Shown here one piece after another: positions 22,191 to 32,180 of a DNA stretch of 50,378 bases. Under the pieces are notes generated by a model. The model ran no database searches and was not told the DNA's origin. It was given only the letters and a program-made list of their open reading frames with translations. The position numbers and the translations under genes were made by a program. The DNA is from Kiloniellaceae bacterium (GTDB taxonomy: Bacteria; Pseudomonadota; Alphaproteobacteria; Kiloniellales; J153). The stretch is from NCBI GenBank assembly GCA_021776055.1, contig JAJFGP010000036.1, forward strand, positions 1 through 50,378. The letters are read 5' to 3'. How positions within the stretch are numbered: the first letter of the stretch is position 1; every line of letters starts with the position of its first letter.

Positions 22191-24248
22191 ATGAGCGCCT
22201 ATCTCTATACCTTCATCGACTTCGTCGCAGCCCACCGGCACTGGGCATACGCGTTGGTGTTTCTCGTCGCGTTCAGTGAATCCCTTCCGGTTATCGGCGC
22301 GGTCATCCCCGGTTCGACGGCGATCATCGGCATCAGCGCCCTGGTGCCCAGTGGCGCTGTCGACCTGATACCGCTGCTCCTTGCGGCCATCGCCGGAGCG
22401 ATCGTCGGGGACGGCTTTGCCTTCTGGCTCGGCTACCGCTACCGCGAACAGATCGTCCGCATGTGGCCGTTTAGCCGGCATCCGGAAATCATCGCCAAGG
22501 GCACCGCGTTCTTCGACCGGCATGGCGCCAAAAGTGTGCTTCTCGCCAGGTTTACGCCGCCGGTACGACCGTTCGTGCCGCTGGTGGCCGGCATTCTGCA
22601 CATGCGGATGCTGCGCTTCTACGTGGCGAACGTGCTCTCCGCCCTGGCCTGGGCACCGGCACACGTGCTGCCCGGCGTGCTGGTCGGGGCCTCGCTGGCG
22701 CTGGCCGGCGCCGTGGCCGGGCGCCTGGCTGTCCTGTTGGTCTTGCTGGTCGGCGCGTTGTGGGCAGCCCTACTCCTGGCACGGCTCGGCTTGCGCTGGG
22801 GCCTGCCGCGCCTCGATACCGAGCTGAACCGCCTATGGCGCTGGATCATCAGCCACGAGACCGCGCCTAGCCGGCTGCTGCGCGCCTACCTCGACCCGGC
22901 ACGGTCAGAGTTCAAAACACTGTTGCTTCTGACCAGCGTCCTGGTCGTCGCAGCAGCTCTATTCGTTGGTATTCTAGAAACAGTGGTGACGGCATCACCT
23001 TCGGTGGCGATGGATGTGGCGGTCTATCATTTCTTTCAAGGATTGCGCACCAGTTGGGGCGACCGCATTCTGGTCGGTGTAACCGAACTTGGTGACGCGG
23101 CCGTGACCATGCCGGTAGGCGCGGCTATCCTATTTTGGTTGGTCTGGCGGCGGGCTTGGCACGCGGCAGCCTACTGGCTTGGCGCGATTGCTCTGGCCGT
23201 GGCCTTCACCATAGCCTTCAAGTTGGTCCTGCAGGTACCGCGACCCGCCGATCTTTATGCCGGGGTGAACGAATTTTCCTTCCCCAGCGGCCATACAATC
23301 GTCAGCGCCACCGTCTATGGCTTCTTCGCTCTGCTCGTTGCCCGCGAGGTGGGCCCGCGTTGGCGCGCCGTGCTTACCGGCGGAACCGCGCTCTTGGTGA
23401 CTGCCATCGCCCTCTCGCGCTTGTATCTGGGAGCGCACTGGCTCTCCGATGTTGTCGGCGGTATTGCCTTCGCCCTGGCTTGGGTGGCGCTGTTGGGCAT
23501 CGCCTATTTACGCCATCGACCGCCGCGATTAGGCGCTGGCGCTCTGCTTGGCGTTGCCGGGCTGGCCTTGTCACTTGCCGGCACCTATCACGTGCTACGG
23601 GCGCATCCGGCTGATTTACAGCGCTATGCGGCGCATGAGGATATCCGCATTGTCGGCGCGGCGGACTGGCGCCCTTCGGCGTGGCAAAGCTTGCCGGCGC
23701 GACGGATCGATCTCGAGGGCGAAGCGGAGGAGCCGCTGACTCTGCAGTGGGCCGGCCAGCCGCAAATCCTGATGAAGGAGTTGCAAGCCGCCGGCTGGCG
23801 CGAGAGCACGCCATGGACCCTGCAAAGCCTGCTGCTATGGCTCGCCCCGAGTGCCGATCCACTTGTCCTGCCGGTCCTGCCACGCTTGCACGACGGGCGC
23901 GCCCCGGTCTTGGTCCTGGTGCGCGCGAATCCATCAGGCAATGGGCACGATGGACGCCTCGCCCTGCGGCTGTGGGCGAGTGATGTTGCCCTCCAAGACG
24001 GCATGGCTGCCCCGCGTCCGGTCTGGGTCGGCGCCATCATCGAGGAACGATTGCGGCGGCCGCTTGGCCTAATGACGCTGACGACGGCCAGACCCGGGGC
24101 AAATGGCCCGCGCGACATTTTGGCGGCGGCGCTCGATCGCTCGGACCGCGTGCACCGCGCCCTTCTGGCACCGGATCGAACCTGGGACGGTCAAGTGATC
24201 CTGGCATCGGATTCGGGGCTGGCCGCCGGCCAGGGGAGCAAGCCATGA
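22191..24248 (+). CDS. DedA - PAP2 phosphatase - LssY fusion membrane protein
   Basis: A 685-residue three-part membrane protein. Residues ~1-200 are DedA/SNARE-associated (SESLPVIGAVIPGSTAI, then RFTPPVRPFVPLVAGILHM), a family linked to lipid flipping. Residues ~230-430 are a PAP2 lipid phosphatase with its three motifs: KLVLQVPRP, PSGH and SRLYLGAHWLSD. Residues ~480-680 match the LssY C-terminal domain of unknown role. Together they suggest dephosphorylation and movement of a lipid phosphate such as undecaprenyl diphosphate or phosphatidic acid. The next gene is diacylglycerol kinase, which carries out the opposite step, 16 bases downstream. Confidence 0.9.
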   Translation: MSAYLYTFIDFVAAHRHWAYALVFLVAFSESLPVIGAVIPGSTAIIGISALVPSGAVDLIPLLLAAIAGAIVGDGFAFWLGYRYREQIVRMWPFSRHPEIIAKGTAFFDRHGAKSVLLARFTPPVRPFVPLVAGILHMRMLRFYVANVLSALAWAPAHVLPGVLVGASLALAGAVAGRLAVLLVLLVGALWAALLLARLGLRWGLPRLDTELNRLWRWIISHETAPSRLLRAYLDPARSEFKTLLLLTSVLVVAAALFVGILETVVTASPSVAMDVAVYHFFQGLRTSWGDRILVGVTELGDAAVTMPVGAAILFWLVWRRAWHAAAYWLGAIALAVAFTIAFKLVLQVPRPADLYAGVNEFSFPSGHTIVSATVYGFFALLVAREVGPRWRAVLTGGTALLVTAIALSRLYLGAHWLSDVVGGIAFALAWVALLGIAYLRHRPPRLGAGALLGVAGLALSLAGTYHVLRAHPADLQRYAAHEDIRIVGAADWRPSAWQSLPARRIDLEGEAEEPLTLQWAGQPQILMKELQAAGWRESTPWTLQSLLLWLAPSADPLVLPVLPRLHDGRAPVLVLVRANPSGNGHDGRLALRLWASDVALQDGMAAPRPVWVGAIIEERLRRPLGLMTLTTARPGANGPRDILAAALDRSDRVHRALLAPDRTWDGQVILASDSGLAAGQGSKP

Positions 24249-24264
24249 GTGACGGAGAACAAAC

Positions 24265-24615
24265 ATGAAGAACCAGGGATTCTCCCGACGGCTTCGTTAT
24301 GCCGCGCTCGGCCTCGCGTGGGCATGGCGGCGTGAAAACAGCTTCCGAATCCAGATCACAGCGGCCGTCCTTGCCGGCGCTAGCCTGCTGATCCTTCGCC
24401 CCCCGCCAATATGGTGGGCAGTCGTCGCGCTTGCGGTCGCGCTGGTGCTCGCCGCCGAGCTTTTCAACGCCGCCATTGAGGCGCTCAGCGACCACTTGCA
24501 CCCAGATCTTCACCCGGAAATTCGAGCCGTGAAGGACATCGCCGCAGCGGCCGTGCTCTGCGCCTGTGCCGGTGCCTTGATCGTCGGTCTGAGCCTGATA
24601 ATCTCGCTCTTATAG
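24265..24615 (+). CDS. dgkA: Diacylglycerol kinase (DgkA type)
   Basis: Small integral membrane kinase that phosphorylates diacylglycerol to phosphatidic acid. The 116 residues have the DgkA pattern: an N-terminal GLAWAWRRENSFRIQ, three membrane helices, and the catalytic AAELFNAAIEALSDHL segment followed by EIRAVKDIAAAAVL. GGAG lies upstream of the ATG. It probably shares a transcript with the DedA-PAP2 gene. Confidence 0.93.
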   Translation: MKNQGFSRRLRYAALGLAWAWRRENSFRIQITAAVLAGASLLILRPPPIWWAVVALAVALVLAAELFNAAIEALSDHLHPDLHPEIRAVKDIAAAAVLCACAGALIVGLSLIISLL

Positions 24616-25555: not shown

Positions 25556-25734
25556 GGCGGCGCCAGATTTAGCCAATGCCGCGGGCCAACGCAACAGTTG
25601 GGCGCCACACCATGCTCTAGCGTCGGGGCATCTAGACCTGTATAAGGTTGCGGCTTGAGAGGCTAAATGCAACCGAACCCCTGGAATCTAATTAGTCCAC
25701 AGCCTGCGGGCGCGGGCGCGAGAGAGGCTTGCGT

Positions 25735-27078
25735 ATGACCGGTGATACCCAGGCACAGGACCTGCTCGGCGATTTGATTGGCAAGGCCACGGCCGCCGGA
25801 GCGGATGCCGCCGATGCGATTTTGCTGCGCTCGGCATCGCTTTCCCATGCCCAGCGCCTCGGCGCCATCGAACGCCTGGAGCGGGAGGAAAGCCGCGATC
25901 TGGGCTTGCGGGTTTTCCTGGGCAAGCACCAAGCCTTCGTCTCCTCCACCGATCTATCGCAGACGGCAATCGACGAGTTGCTCACCCGCGCCATAGCCAT
26001 GGCCCGCAGCGTCCCGGAAGACCCCTATTGCGGCATCGCCGATCCGGATCAGCTGGCGCGAGAGATCCCGGCTTTGGATATCTTCGACGCGGACGAGCCG
26101 GCGACCGAACAGCTTATTGAGCAAGCCAAGGTCTCCGAAGAAGCGGCGCGAAGCGTTCCCGGCGTGACCAACTCGGAAGGCGCCGAGGCATCCTGGAGTT
26201 GCAGCCGCATAACCCTCGCCGCCTCCAATGGTTTTTCGGGTGGTTACGCGGTCTCGCGCCATGCCACCAGCGTATCGGTCCTGGCCGGGGAAGGTCAGGC
26301 CATGGAACGTGACTATGACTTCTCGACCTCGGTCTATAACGAGGATCTGGAAGGCGCCGCGGCACTTGGCCAGCGCGCCGGCGAAAAGGCCGTCCGCCGC
26401 CTTGGCGCGCGCAAACCGGCGACCGGCAAAGTCACCGTGATCTTCGACCCTCGCGCCGCCAACAGCCTGCTCGGCCACCTGGCCGGGTCCATTTCGGGAC
26501 CGGCTATCGCCCGGGGCACCAGTTTTCTCAAGGACAAGCTGGGCGAAGCGATTTTTGCGCCCGGCATTACCATCGTCGACGATCCGCACCGCCAGCGGGG
26601 CCTGCGCTCGCGCCCGTTCGATGCCGAAGGTGTGGCTACGACCCGGCGTAACATTATCGAAGATGGGCGCCTGATCACCTGGATTCTCAGCCTCAGCTCG
26701 GCCCGTCAGCTCGGTTTAGCCACCACCGGCCATGCCGTGCGTGGTATCTCGGGACCGCCAAGCCCGGCAACCAGCAACCTCTATATGGAGCCGGGCAGCC
26801 AGACGCCACAGGAGCTGATGGCCGATATTCGCCAGGGTTTCTACGTCACCGAGATGATGGGCATGGGTGTCAACGGCGTGACCGGCGACTACAGCCGCGG
26901 GGCTGCCGGGTTCTGGATCGAGGATGGACAGATCACCTATCCGGTGCACGAGATCACCATCGCCGGCAACCTCAAGGACATGTTCCGCAACCTGACGCCA
27001 GCCAACGACCTGACCTTCCGCTATGGCGTCAACGCCCCGACCCTGCGGGTCGAGAACATGACCGTCGCCGGGGAATAG
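25735..27078 (+). CDS. pmbA: PmbA (TldE) subunit of the TldD/E protease
   Basis: Non-catalytic partner of TldD; the heterodimer forms a closed chamber that degrades unfolded peptides. The 447 residues lack the HExxxH motif of TldD, as expected. Family blocks are RLEREESRDLGLRVFLGKHQ in the first domain and GVNGVTGDYSRGAAGFWIE near the end. ATG at 25735 has AGAGAGG about 7 bases upstream; a TTG at 25729 is less likely. TldD is encoded 14.5 kb upstream at 9749. Confidence 0.94.
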   Translation: MTGDTQAQDLLGDLIGKATAAGADAADAILLRSASLSHAQRLGAIERLEREESRDLGLRVFLGKHQAFVSSTDLSQTAIDELLTRAIAMARSVPEDPYCGIADPDQLAREIPALDIFDADEPATEQLIEQAKVSEEAARSVPGVTNSEGAEASWSCSRITLAASNGFSGGYAVSRHATSVSVLAGEGQAMERDYDFSTSVYNEDLEGAAALGQRAGEKAVRRLGARKPATGKVTVIFDPRAANSLLGHLAGSISGPAIARGTSFLKDKLGEAIFAPGITIVDDPHRQRGLRSRPFDAEGVATTRRNIIEDGRLITWILSLSSARQLGLATTGHAVRGISGPPSPATSNLYMEPGSQTPQELMADIRQGFYVTEMMGMGVNGVTGDYSRGAAGFWIEDGQITYPVHEITIAGNLKDMFRNLTPANDLTFRYGVNAPTLRVENMTVAGE

Positions 27079-27085
27079 CCCCTCC

Positions 27086-28030
27086 CTAAGGCATTACTAG
27101 GCGCAATACGTCAGGCACCACGTCGATTTCCACGGGAAGAGTCGCGACGATATCGCCGTCCGCTTGCAACGGCTCGCCGGCGGGCTCGGCGATGGTCACA
27201 TGGCGCGCCAGCAGAATTCGATAATCAAGCCGCCGCGCCAGACGACCGGTTTGCAGCGCCACCATGTACCGCAAGACGGCAAGCGGCCCGCCTCTCTCGA
27301 ACAGGCAGACATGCAGCACCGGATCATCGATCGCCGCCTCGGGCGCGCAGACATAGCGGCCGGCGTAATGGCGCCCGTTGGCGATAATCAACGAGGCGGC
27401 CTCGTACACCGCCCCATCCACCGTCACCCGGTAGCGTGGGCAGCGAAAGGCCCCGAGCTGTCGCAGGCTTTCGGCCACATAGGCACCTTTGCCGAGCGCC
27501 CTTTTTAGGCCCGGATTGACGCCGGCGACCACGTGCGCGTCGAAGCCGACTCCAGCCATCAAGGAAAAATGGGTCCGGCGACCGGCCTGGTCTCGCAGGC
27601 GTCCAAGGCAGACCGTTCGCGCCCTGCCGGCTGCCACCACCTCGGCCAATGCCCGTGGATCCGCGGGCAAGCCGATCTCGATGGCCAACACATTGGCCGT
27701 GCCGAGCGGCAGGATCGCCAGCGGTGGCGCGCCGGCCACGGCCACAAGGCCGTTGATAACCTCGGCAACCGTCCCGTCGCCACCCGCGGCCACCACCGCG
27801 TCATACCCCATGCCAACAGACTCACGGGCCCAGGCCTCGGCATCGCCGCGCGTTGCTGTTTCCCGCACCTCGGTCTGGCAGCCGAGTGCCTGTAGGCAGT
27901 CAAGCGTACGGGCAAACAGCCCGCCACGCCGACCGGCCGTCGGATTGCGAATGACCAGCAGATTGCGAAAATGCGGATCGCCGCCTACCGCAGGCCGGCG
28001 GGTGCGCCACGCGTCTGATTTGTTAAACAC
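27086..28030 (-). CDS. Diacylglycerol/sphingolipid kinase family protein
   Basis: Soluble lipid kinase of the DAGK-catalytic (YegS/LCB5) family, 314 residues. The phosphate-binding blocks are VIRNPTAGRRGG near residue 26, AAGGDGTVAEVINGL, and LPLGTANVLAIE. Such enzymes phosphorylate diacylglycerol or related lipids. GTG at 28030 is the only usable start before the conserved NPTAG block. It is divergent from the PlcP/Agt-like pair, and three PhoB-like repeats lie directly before its start, so phosphate control is likely. It could convert PlcP-made diacylglycerol into phosphatidic acid. Confidence 0.9.
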   Translation of the reverse strand: MFNKSDAWRTRRPAVGGDPHFRNLLVIRNPTAGRRGGLFARTLDCLQALGCQTEVRETATRGDAEAWARESVGMGYDAVVAAGGDGTVAEVINGLVAVAGAPPLAILPLGTANVLAIEIGLPADPRALAEVVAAGRARTVCLGRLRDQAGRRTHFSLMAGVGFDAHVVAGVNPGLKRALGKGAYVAESLRQLGAFRCPRYRVTVDGAVYEAASLIIANGRHYAGRYVCAPEAAIDDPVLHVCLFERGGPLAVLRYMVALQTGRLARRLDYRILLARHVTIAEPAGEPLQADGDIVATLPVEIDVVPDVLRLVMP

Positions 28031-28031
28031 T

Positions 28032-28060
28032 GATACAGTTCAATAACAGAGTCTTTACAG
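28032..28060 (-). promoter_or_regulatory. Three PhoB-like (Pho box) repeats
   Basis: Read on the minus strand, the 7-base units CTGTAAA, CTGTTAT and CTGTATC follow each other with exact 4-base spacers (GACT and TGAA), an 11-base period. On the plus strand they occupy 28054-28060, 28043-28049 and 28032-28038. The Pho box consensus is CTGTCAT-N4-CTGTCAT, so each unit keeps CTGT and varies in the last three bases. They lie in the divergent gap between a lipid kinase and a PlcP/Agt-like pair. Confidence 0.6.
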
Positions 28061-28197
28061 ATTTTGGACTGTTACATGAAGTTTTGAATATTAGCAAAGA
28101 TAAACGATGAAATAATTTGTTTTCGTGTAATTTTCCAGTGCAAATCTCATCCAGATACTTGCTCGTACAACGATCACAGCGTGGAGCATTGTAGCGG

Positions 28198-28977
28198 ATG
28201 CACGGCATCCTGGAAAAGAACCGCTACCGAACAATTTGGATTTCCGACGTTCATTTGGGCACTCGGGGGTGCAAGGCGGATTACTTGCTCGATTTTCTGA
28301 AATGGAACGAGTCCGACGTGCTCTACCTGGTCGGCGATATCTTCGATGGTTGGCGCCTCCGGCGCTCGTGGTTTTGGCCGCAGAGCCACAACGACGTGGT
28401 GCAAAAGCTGTTGCGCAAGGCGCGCAAGGGGACGCGCGTCGTCTACCTGCCGGGCAACCACGACGAAGTTTTACGGCCCTACGTCGGCATGCACCTCGGC
28501 GGCATCGTGCTGGCCGACGAGGTGATCCACGAAACCGCTGACCGCCGCCGGTTGCTAGTTATCCACGGCGACCAGTTCGACGGCATCGTCCGCTACGCGC
28601 GCTGGCTCGCGCTGCTCGGTGATTTTGCCTATACCGCGGCGCTGGCGATCAATCATTGGTACAATCTGCTGCGGCGGCGCCTCGGCCTCGGATACTGGTC
28701 GCTCTCGGCCTATCTCAAGCAAAAGGTCAAAAACGCCGTCCGCTTCATCGATGATTACGAAGCGGCGTTGGCGGACCAAGCGCGCCGACGCGGCATCGAT
28801 GGTGTCGTCTGCGGACACATTCACAAGGCCGAGGTCGGCAAGCGTGACGGCATTCTGTATTGCAACACCGGTGATTGGGTGGAGAGTTGCACCGCTCTGG
28901 TCGAGCACACGGATGGCCGGCTGGAAATCATCCATTGGGCGGAGACACGCGCCCTATCCATGTTGTCTCACGGCTAA
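28198..28977 (+). CDS. PlcP/LpxH-like metallophosphoesterase
   Basis: Calcineurin-type phosphoesterase of 259 residues with a two-metal site: D17 and H19 (SDVHLG), D47 (VGDIFDGW), N87-H88 (GNHDE), H123 (HGDQFDG), H207 and H209 (CGHIHK). Automatic annotation often calls it UDP-2,3-diacylglucosamine diphosphatase. Location argues for PlcP, the phospholipase C-like enzyme that removes phospholipid head groups during phosphate starvation, because the next gene is an Agt-like glycosyltransferase joined by a TAATG overlap. An LpxH-type lipid A role remains possible. Confidence 0.85.
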   Translation: MHGILEKNRYRTIWISDVHLGTRGCKADYLLDFLKWNESDVLYLVGDIFDGWRLRRSWFWPQSHNDVVQKLLRKARKGTRVVYLPGNHDEVLRPYVGMHLGGIVLADEVIHETADRRRLLVIHGDQFDGIVRYARWLALLGDFAYTAALAINHWYNLLRRRLGLGYWSLSAYLKQKVKNAVRFIDDYEAALADQARRRGIDGVVCGHIHKAEVGKRDGILYCNTGDWVESCTALVEHTDGRLEIIHWAETRALSMLSHG

Positions 28978-29975
28978 TGCGCCTGCTCATTGTCAGCGAC
29001 GCTTGGCTGCCGCAGATCAACGGGGTGGTCCGGACCCTCACGCGCGTCAAAGACGAAGTGGAGCGCCTCGGTCACGACGTCCATGTGATTTCGCCGGATC
29101 TCTTCCCCACGCTTCCCTGCCCTAGCTATCCGGAGATTCGGCTGTCGCTGACCCCTGGGCGCAAGCTGGCCCGGCTGATCGATCACCTGGCGCCCGAGGC
29201 GATCCACATCGCGACCGAAGGGCCGCTGGGACACGCGGCACGGCGCTACTGTCTACGCCGTGACCAACAATTCACATCGTCGTATCACACGCGTTTTCCC
29301 GAGTATGTGGCGGCTCGCCTGGGTTTACCGCTAGCGCTGAGCTACGCGATGCTGCGCCGCTTTCACCGGCCATCCTCGGCGGTGATGACGGCCACGGAGT
29401 CGTTACGCCATGATCTTAAGCAGCGCGGATTTCGCAACCTGCGCGCCTGGTCGCGCGGTGTCGATACGGATCTCTTTCATCCTGGCCCAAAGGACCTCTA
29501 TGATTTACCGCGCCCGGTCTTCATCAATGTGGGTCGCGTCGCGATTGAGAAAAACCTGACGGCCTTTCTCGACCTCGATTTGCCGGGAAGCAAAATGATT
29601 GTCGGCAACGGCCCGCAGCTTCCAGCCCTTAAGCGGCGCTATCCGGATGTCCACTTCACCGGTGCCAAAACGGGGCCGGACCTAGCACGCCACTATGCCG
29701 TCGGAGATGTCTTCGTCTTCCCCAGCCGGACCGATACGTTCGGCCTGGTCTTGCTCGAGGCCCTGGCCAGCGGCCTGCCGGTGGCGGCATATCCGGTCCC
29801 TGGGCCCCTGGATGTCATCGGCGGAACCGGAACCGGCTGCCTCAGCGAGGATCTGGCGGATGCGGCCATTCGGGCCCTGAAGATCTCGCCGGACCGCTGC
29901 CGCACCCATTCCCTGCAGCATTCCTGGAAGGCGTGCGCCGAGCAGTTTCTCAGCCTTCTGGAGCCCATCCACTAG
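28977..29975 (+). CDS. Family 4-like glycosyltransferase (Agt-like)
   Basis: Cytoplasmic-face glycosyltransferase of 332 residues with a GT-B fold. Seen: the glycine loop LPQINGVVRTL near residue 11, the HTRFPEY block at 104-110 typical of lipid glucosyltransferases, and the nucleotide-sugar motif DTFGLVLLE with E261. Agt enzymes put glucose or glucuronate on diacylglycerol to make phosphorus-free glycolipids. The start ATG overlaps the stop of the PlcP-like gene by one base (TAATG), which indicates coupled translation. The sugar and acceptor cannot be read from sequence. Confidence 0.85.
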   Translation: MRLLIVSDAWLPQINGVVRTLTRVKDEVERLGHDVHVISPDLFPTLPCPSYPEIRLSLTPGRKLARLIDHLAPEAIHIATEGPLGHAARRYCLRRDQQFTSSYHTRFPEYVAARLGLPLALSYAMLRRFHRPSSAVMTATESLRHDLKQRGFRNLRAWSRGVDTDLFHPGPKDLYDLPRPVFINVGRVAIEKNLTAFLDLDLPGSKMIVGNGPQLPALKRRYPDVHFTGAKTGPDLARHYAVGDVFVFPSRTDTFGLVLLEALASGLPVAAYPVPGPLDVIGGTGTGCLSEDLADAAIRALKISPDRCRTHSLQHSWKACAEQFLSLLEPIH

Positions 29976-29989
29976 GCCCGTCGCGATGT

Positions 29990-30272
29990 AGAGCACGACC
30001 TCTCCAAATGGAATCGCCTGCGCCGGGGCCATTTGTGGCGCGGTCAGGAGCAGGGTGCCCAGTGTTTCTCAAGGCTTGGGCGTAGCGGGACTACGGGCAA
30101 GCCCCGCGACGCAGCCGCGCCGCAAAGGGTCCCGGCCCTTCGGGTTGTGCCCTGGCGGGCGCCCGCTGCGTTGCCCCGCTTGGCCGATATCCCGCATCGC
30201 CCGGCGCGGCGCGCCTGACGGGCGCCCGCCAGAACGCAACGCAGGCGGTTCCATTTGGAGAGGTCGTGCTCT
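29990..30272. repeat. 283-bp palindromic repeat element (MITE-like)
   Basis: Terminal inverted repeats of 33 bases (29990-30022 and 30240-30272) match at 32 positions; the arm begins AGAGCACGACCTCTCCAAAT. Inside are further inverted pairs: CTGGCGGGCGCCCG (30152-30165) with CGGGCGCCCGCCAG (30219-30232), and a nested GGCTTG...CGTAG...CTACG...CAAGCC hairpin near 30074-30104. The core is very GC-rich with no credible gene and no transposase. I see no clear target-site duplication. It fills the gap between the glycosyltransferase gene and the MsbA-like gene and ends 24 bases before the chosen MsbA start. It could end transcription, act as a structured RNA or be a non-autonomous mobile repeat. Confidence 0.75.
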
Positions 30273-30296
30273 GGTCGGGTCGGCGCCAACCATGGT

Positions 30297-32180
30297 ATGG
30301 TCCCGCCCGACTTCGGCAGCGTAGCAGCATCCTTGTCCAAACAAGACGTTTCATCCGCGCCCGGCAAGACATCCGGGCCCATTCACCTCGACAGAACCAC
30401 CCGCACATTGGTTGGGCGGTTGGTGCGCGATTATCTGCGCCCGCACAGCGGCCGAATCGCCGTCGGGCTGGTGTGCATGGCCATCGTCGCCGCCTCGACT
30501 GCGGCCTTTACCCAGCTCATCAAGCCGATCATCGATGACATCTTCATCGATCAACGACAGGAAGCACTTCTACCCGTGGCGATTGCGGTGTTGGTCGTCT
30601 TTGCGGCCAAGGGGATCGCGACCTATGCCCAGGCGGTGCTGATGAGTTTCGTCGGCCACCGGGTCGTCGCGGACCTGCAACAGCATTTGTACGAGCGGCT
30701 GATCGGCGCCGATCTGGCTTTTTTCCACCGGGTGTCGCCGGGTGATCTGGTCGCCCGCTTTATCAACGACATCAATATGCTGCGCAGCGCCGTGTCGACC
30801 ACCCTGGTCGGCTTGGGCAAGGATTCGCTGACCGCCTTAGCGCTTATCGGTGTCATGTTCTACGAGGACTGGCTGCTGGCCCTGGTCGCCTTCGTTGCCT
30901 TCCCGGCGGCGATTCTGCCGATGGTGCGCATCGGCCGGCGGGTGCGCAGTATTTCCGCCGATACCCAAGCCCAAGTCGGCCGGCTGACGACCCTGCTCGA
31001 CGAGTCGTTCCAAGGTATGCGCTACGTCAAGGCATACGCCATGGAGGCATACGAATCCCTACGCGCGCGCGCAACCATCGATGAGGTTTTTCGCCTGAAC
31101 TACCGCAGCGCCCGGGTGCGCAACGCGCTGCACCCGGTGATGGAAATCCTCGGCGGTCTGGCTGTCGTCTCGGTCATTCTCTACGGCGGACATCAGGTGA
31201 TCTCGCAAGGCAAATCGCCGGGCTCCTTCTTTGCCTTCATCACGGCCTTGCTGCTGGCCTACGAACCGATGAAACGGCTGGCCAAGCTCAATGCCAACCT
31301 GCAAGAGGGCCTGGCGGCCGCGGAGCGGGTCTTTGAGTTGCTCGATCAGGAACCGGAGATTCAGGAAAAACCCGACGCCCGGCCGCTTACCGTAGCCGGC
31401 GGCGCCATCCGTTTCACCGACGTAAGCTTCTCCTACGAGACCGGTACGGCAGCGCTAAACGAGGTGAGCCTGGAGGTGCCGGCCGGACGCACTGCCGCCT
31501 TGGTTGGCGCCTCGGGTGCTGGCAAATCGACGGTCCTCAATCTGATCCCACGCTTTTACGATGTAGGCCGCGGCGCGGTAAGTGTTGATGGCCAGGACGT
31601 GCGCGATGTCACCTTGGACTCGCTGCGCCAGCAGATCGCCCTTGTCAGCCAGGAAATTTTGCTTTTCGACGATACCATCCGCGCCAACATCGCCTATGGC
31701 CGTCCCGGCGCCAGCGACGCCGACATGGCCGCCGCCGCCGCCGCCGCCGGTGCCGACGGGTTCATCGCCGAGCTGCCGCAAGGATACGAGACGCCGGTCG
31801 GCCCGCGCGGCGCCAAGCTGTCGGGCGGCCAGCGGCAACGCATCGCCATCGCCCGGGCGATGCTGAAGAACGCGCCGATTCTGCTGCTCGACGAGGCGAC
31901 CTCGTCGTTGGATAGCGAGTCGGAGCGGCATGTGCAGAAAGCCCTGGCCGAGCTAATGGCTGGCCGCACAACCCTGGTCATCGCACACCGGCTGTCCACT
32001 ATTGTCGATGCGGATGTCATTTTTGTCATGGATGGCGGGCGCGTGGTCGAATCCGGTTCCCACGCCGAGTTGCTTGACCGCGCCGGCCCCTATGCACGCC
32101 TCTATGCCGCGCAATTCGTCGAAGAAGACGACAGCGCCGCCGCCGAGGTCGCTCGCGCCCACGCTAGAACCCGAGCATAA
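30297..32180 (+). CDS. MsbA-like lipid exporter (ABC transporter)
   Basis: Half-transporter of 627 residues: six membrane helices in the first ~330 residues and a C-terminal ATPase domain with Walker A GASGAGKST, signature LSGGQRQRIAIARA and Walker B ILLLDEAT. By length and by its place before lipid A genes it is probably the flippase for lipid A core or another lipid. ATG at 30297 is the first in-frame start beyond the inverted-repeat element; a longer frame from 30255 would begin inside the repeat arm. A TTG at 30333 is also possible. Confidence 0.9.
   Translation: MVPPDFGSVAASLSKQDVSSAPGKTSGPIHLDRTTRTLVGRLVRDYLRPHSGRIAVGLVCMAIVAASTAAFTQLIKPIIDDIFIDQRQEALLPVAIAVLVVFAAKGIATYAQAVLMSFVGHRVVADLQQHLYERLIGADLAFFHRVSPGDLVARFINDINMLRSAVSTTLVGLGKDSLTALALIGVMFYEDWLLALVAFVAFPAAILPMVRIGRRVRSISADTQAQVGRLTTLLDESFQGMRYVKAYAMEAYESLRARATIDEVFRLNYRSARVRNALHPVMEILGGLAVVSVILYGGHQVISQGKSPGSFFAFITALLLAYEPMKRLAKLNANLQEGLAAAERVFELLDQEPEIQEKPDARPLTVAGGAIRFTDVSFSYETGTAALNEVSLEVPAGRTAALVGASGAGKSTVLNLIPRFYDVGRGAVSVDGQDVRDVTLDSLRQQIALVSQEILLFDDTIRANIAYGRPGASDADMAAAAAAAGADGFIAELPQGYETPVGPRGAKLSGGQRQRIAIARAMLKNAPILLLDEATSSLDSESERHVQKALAELMAGRTTLVIAHRLSTIVDADVIFVMDGGRVVESGSHAELLDRAGPYARLYAAQFVEEDDSAAAEVARAHARTRA

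Follow-up and report, generated by a model that had tools for sequence, protein, structure and literature searches.

A plcP gene with a neighbouring agt is the commonest marine arrangement, and plcP clusters carry putative Pho boxes (PMC4796936). In the operon of Methylosinus trichosporium OB3b, plcP is located directly upstream of agt with a Pho box ahead, and a plcP-agt knock-out in Methylosinus abolished glucuronic acid diacylglycerol (PMC9239053). The same direct succession of plcP and agt is found in the 'type 2' context of marine heterotrophs, and the known systems also include the Agt of Agrobacterium and the PlcP of Sinorhizobium, as cited in PMC4796936. Sugar-nucleotide motifs of Agt have been defined as GRVAxEKN and FPSxTDTFG (PMC8231724). 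The word "kinase" is absent from the main text of PMC9239053 and PMC4796936, and no paper describing an association of PlcP with a diacylglycerol or lipid kinase was found among the open-licence papers searched.

The locus studied here lies in a stretch of 50,378 nucleotides from a Kiloniellaceae bacterium, analysed as a whole and called the window (contig C113; the genome comprises 3.72 Mb in 183 contigs). From left to right, the order is pmbA (25729-27078, plus strand; PF19289, a conserved flank of the kinase by synteny in relatives), a lipid kinase gene (27086-28030, minus strand), a gap of 167 bases, plcP (28198-28977, plus), agt (28977-29975, plus), a 283-base repeat element, msbA (30271-32180, plus), DUF374, lpxK and an lpxL-type acyltransferase gene. 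The plcP and agt genes are fused by TAATG at 28975-28979, in which one A is common to the plcP stop and the agt start. A first-pass annotation had described the kinase as divergent from a phosphoesterase-glycosyltransferase pair joined in this way, and all three genes were found to be real. As judged from its sequence, the locus is a PlcP-Agt system of the known kind with a Pho box. It shares with the known operons the position of plcP directly upstream of agt, the Pho box ahead, the signatures of PlcP and Agt and the presence of PhoB-PhoR. It differs from them by the addition of a divergent lipid kinase, with the array of Pho half-sites facing the kinase.

The phosphoesterase scored over the cut-off of PF00149 and carries the motifs DVHL, VGDIFDG, GNHDE, HGDQF and GHIHK, which correspond to the D-x-H, GD, GNHD, HGD and GHxH metal-binding set. 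This superfamily and its metal motifs are common to E. coli LpxH, and the neighbourhood downstream (msbA, DUF374, lpxK and the lpxL-type acyltransferase) might suggest that the protein is instead an LpxH-type lipid A enzyme; its sequence matches in the PDB are also LpxH (best E 4e-6). Such an identity is extremely improbable on the remaining evidence. The protein scored far under the cut-offs of two LpxH models (43.7 bits against 190.35, and 47.4 bits against 134), and the GNRD of E. coli LpxH is replaced in it by GNHDE. A quick tree of 119 rows put the protein within the PlcP clade, surrounded by sequences from Rhodospirillales, with E. coli LpxH on a very long branch outside; the clade also includes a PlcP from a Methylosinus species, the nearest stand-in for an experimentally studied PlcP. 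LpxI, which performs the corresponding lipid A reaction in many alphaproteobacteria, is encoded elsewhere in this genome. Moreover, the phosphoesterase gene is missing in family relatives whose msbA remains at the locus. LpxH identity was rejected on the missed cut-offs, the presence of LpxI and the tree. The adjacent gene for a non-phosphorus lipid, expected of plcP, is provided by agt, which overlaps the plcP stop. The phosphoesterase is thus predicted to be PlcP and not LpxH, in agreement with the earlier proposal; the grouping with LpxH that had been named there as refuting was not obtained. Two further loci of one family (L220 and L221; genomes G035 and G022, family f8) encode a second PlcP-like paralogue each, more distant (about 48-49% identity) and with the motifs GNHDPE and GHIHH.

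The agt product (PF13439/PF13692) is a predicted GT4 diacylglycerol-dependent glycosyltransferase with both Agt signature motifs, GRVAIEKN and FPSRTDTFG. Between agt and msbA is a dispersed repeat element (29990-30272, 283 bp) with 33-bp terminal inverted repeats that are 97% complementary; four other near-full copies occur in the genome at 82-91% identity. The element is predicted to fold into a long and very strong hairpin (fold z = -12.2), which may terminate agt transcription. Its right end coincides with a break in homology against a same-genus genome. The other conserved flank is msbA. Its mechanical TTG start at 30255 falls within the element, and the match to the same-genus genome starts at 30271; the msbA product scored 578.9 bits with TIGR02203, under the cut-off of 602.

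The kinase scored 142.4 bits with TIGR00147 (cut-off 118.65), and its domains PF00781 and PF19279 were over their cut-offs. Upstream of the conserved core, no ATG, GTG or TTG start other than the GTG at 28030 is present. The protein is predicted to be a lipid kinase of the YegS/Rv2252/BmrU family, with which it shares the DAGK_cat and YegS_C domains. The nearest solved structures are YegS and DgkB, but the cut-offs of the narrower equivalog models for YegS and DgkB were not reached. Bacterial lipid kinases with other substrates exist, such as the ceramide kinase CpgB of Caulobacter (PMC10331486). A DedA-PAP2-LssY_C fusion protein and a DgkA-type diacylglycerol kinase are encoded 2.5-6 kb from the locus (22191-24615), so that two unrelated lipid kinases are close together.

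The gap between the kinase and plcP contains CTGT starts on the minus strand at 28060, 28049 and 28038, spaced by exactly 11 bases: CTGTAAAGACT CTGTTATTGAA CTGTATCAGTG. These three units, already recognised in the first-pass annotation, span 28028-28060 and belong to a longer array. Further half-sites upstream at 28071 and 28082 bring the array to about five units (28028-28082, minus strand), which read from 28082 down to 28028 as ACTTCATGTAA CAGTCCAAAAT CTGTAAAGACT CTGTTATTGAA CTGTATCAGTG. The array is directed toward the kinase, and its end abuts the kinase start codon. A Pho-box matrix was built from pstS promoters of the window genome and of 29 relatives in the same order, 30 genomes in all (consensus CTGTCATAAAACTGTCACnnAAcTGTAGTAA); one of the 30 training sites was the pstS box of the window genome, and none came from a plcP locus. 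With this matrix, the best three of about 100,000 18-mers in the 50.4 kb window were at 28032, 28043 and 28054, all on the minus strand. The array consists of direct repeats with 11-bp spacing that match the lineage's own pstS boxes.

Evidence for regulation in the genome itself was sought by genome-wide pattern searches and by the matrix inside the window. Across all 3.72 Mb, exact CTGTNANNNNNCTGTNA is present at two sites only, in this gap and upstream of pstS. One-mismatch matches numbered 66 genome-wide against 76 in the reversed control, and the pattern alone is therefore not enriched genome-wide. This result, together with a shuffle p of only about 0.02 for the best two-unit score, speaks for a chance origin of the array in a gap rich in A and T, at a locus without phosphate control. 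We regard that as very unlikely. The two-unit value is modest because the gap is AT-rich, and the strength of the array is therefore its length: half-site arrays of three, four and five units at 11-base spacing gave p = 0.002, <0.0002 and <0.0002, respectively, when the gap was shuffled 5000 times, and all three were top-ranked in the window. Pho boxes are also present in the orthologous gaps of relatives. The genome encodes a single PhoB that passes the curated cut-off, and its gene shares a contig with phoR-pstS; PhoR-PstS is accompanied by a canonical Pho box CTGTCATAAAACTGTCAC. Also on the contig of phoB and pstS is a gene for a protein with an Acetyltransf_5 domain, which may be OlsB of the ornithine lipid pathway (G000:C97:46144-46467).

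The gene identities, the array, the PhoB-PhoR-PstS genes and the conservation of Pho boxes ahead of plcP, all read at the level of sequence, make it highly probable that this is a Pho-regulon PlcP-Agt lipid-remodelling locus in which the PhoB array drives plcP-agt, with the kinase as an ancestral neighbour. The earlier proposal of a remodelling pair behind a PhoB-type array is thus supported, in a genome with PhoB-PhoR-PstS. By analogy with the characterised systems, phosphorylated PhoB would bind the 11-bp array in the kinase-plcP gap at low phosphate and raise plcP-agt transcription. PlcP would then cut the phosphate head group off phospholipids to give diacylglycerol, to which Agt would add a sugar, with mono-hexosyl or glucuronosyl diacylglycerol as the likely product. 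Several observations count against the remodelling reading. The array faces the kinase, and no plus-strand Pho box scored above -1.4 bits; at a distance of about 115-170 bp from the plcP start, the array would act on plcP from upstream in reverse orientation. Its single units are weak (2-9 bits), plcP is missing in all eight family relatives, and no good sigma-70 promoter for plcP was found in the window. In 12 relatives, where 1.3 would be expected, a -10-like motif, TTGnTATA, precedes plcP by about 70-85 nt; this motif is absent from the window.

The divergent kinase had been singled out previously as the less usual part of the locus, a third member under the same repeats. This was not borne out by the comparison with relatives. 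A divergent kinase adjoining plcP-agt was found in Reyranella, Azospirillum, Magnetospirillum, Niveispirillum and many other Rhodospirillales, and the arrangement is therefore not unusual. At these loci pmbA often flanks the kinase, and msbA the far side of agt. Within the window's own family, plcP was present in none of the eight relatives, and the lineage therefore does not carry the locus as a fixed trait. Four of the eight have the kinase next to msbA without plcP-agt, and in three of these four pmbA was also seen on the other side. Homology to the same-genus genome is interrupted from window position 27967 to 30271, a segment in place of which that genome has 116 bases. Loss of plcP-agt in the family relatives is the simpler reading, because the full gene order is present in other families; gain in the window genome is the alternative. 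In one genome of another family (L224; G013, f6), agt follows the kinase with no plcP between and no plcP match in that genome, which is a case of partial loss. At a further locus (L157 1799-4200; G009, family f2), plcP-agt is apparently divergent from a dapA-like gene and from genes that, by eye, encode a phosphonate-type binding protein and an ABC ATPase.

The association of the box with either gene was compared across loci. For the best box ahead of plcP in relatives, the mean z was 3.2 where a divergent kinase is present and 2.3 where there is none, against 0.6 with reversed-column matrix controls, and a box of at least 8.5 bits was found at 73 of 109 loci. Ahead of kinases without an adjacent plcP, the mean box z was 0.09 (n=18), against 1.77 for those with an adjacent plcP (n=41; Mann-Whitney p = 2.5e-5, relatedness ignored). 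Among the 18 kinases without an adjacent plcP, a Pho box was thus generally not retained, with two to three exceptions that have a weak box (L116, L215 and L224), and membership of the kinase in the Pho regulon is not supported. Conversely, eight genomes of one family (f4) have Pho boxes ahead of plcP-agt without an adjacent kinase. At the two f4 loci that were read (L222 and L223; G052 and G059), plcP-agt directly follows a pstS paralogue. In the f4 kinase regions read, the kinase is beside msbA, pmbA was also seen in most, and a box is mostly lacking. The position of the box does not decide which gene is served, since its distances to the kinase and to plcP both vary widely (sd 49 and 64). 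The occurrence of the kinase beside msbA, without or apart from plcP-agt and generally boxless, argues that the array belongs with plcP-agt. The kinase is probably an older neighbour at pmbA-msbA and no dedicated third component.

These data also bear on the inference made in the first-pass annotation that the kinase is a true third member, co-activated by PhoB with plcP-agt and returning some of the diacylglycerol to phosphatidate. The array does face the kinase and abut its start. In the 36 kinase-adjacent loci with a box, the box is directed toward the kinase in 16 and toward plcP in 20, and a kinase match was obtained in 27 of 30 plcP-bearing genomes against 13 of 30 without plcP. The 13 plcP-less genomes nevertheless retain the kinase, and kinases without an adjacent plcP are generally boxless as described above. 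At pstS, the -10 lies within or adjacent to the final unit; the same use of the array here would put the transcription start at the GTG or within it, so that the kinase would either have a leaderless message or be blocked by PhoB. A separate DgkA gene is 2.5 kb away, and synthesis of phosphatidate would oppose the saving of phosphorus. Co-activation of the kinase is therefore considered unlikely.

The block of the kinase leads to another reading, in which PhoB acts as a two-way switch: the array would activate plcP-agt and block the kinase, so that diacylglycerol would go to Agt and not be re-phosphorylated. The contact of the array with the kinase start in the window is consistent with this, as is the position of the array in Reyranella-like loci, where it overlaps or abuts the kinase start. 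The support is positional, however; at three Rhodospirillaceae loci (L012, L014 and L020), some 70 bp separate the box from the start of the kinase, and the narrower models do not assign a substrate to the kinase. We consider such a switch improbable. If it were true, diacylglycerol from phospholipid breakdown would be routed to glycolipids.

On the preferred reading, in which the array drives plcP-agt and the kinase is an older neighbour, the locus adds lineages to the bacteria predicted to swap phospholipids for glycolipids under phosphate limitation. The locus is patchy within its own family and therefore marks an easily lost trait. The recurrent kinase-plcP-agt order offers a natural comparison for how diacylglycerol may be split between glycolipid synthesis and phospholipid re-synthesis.
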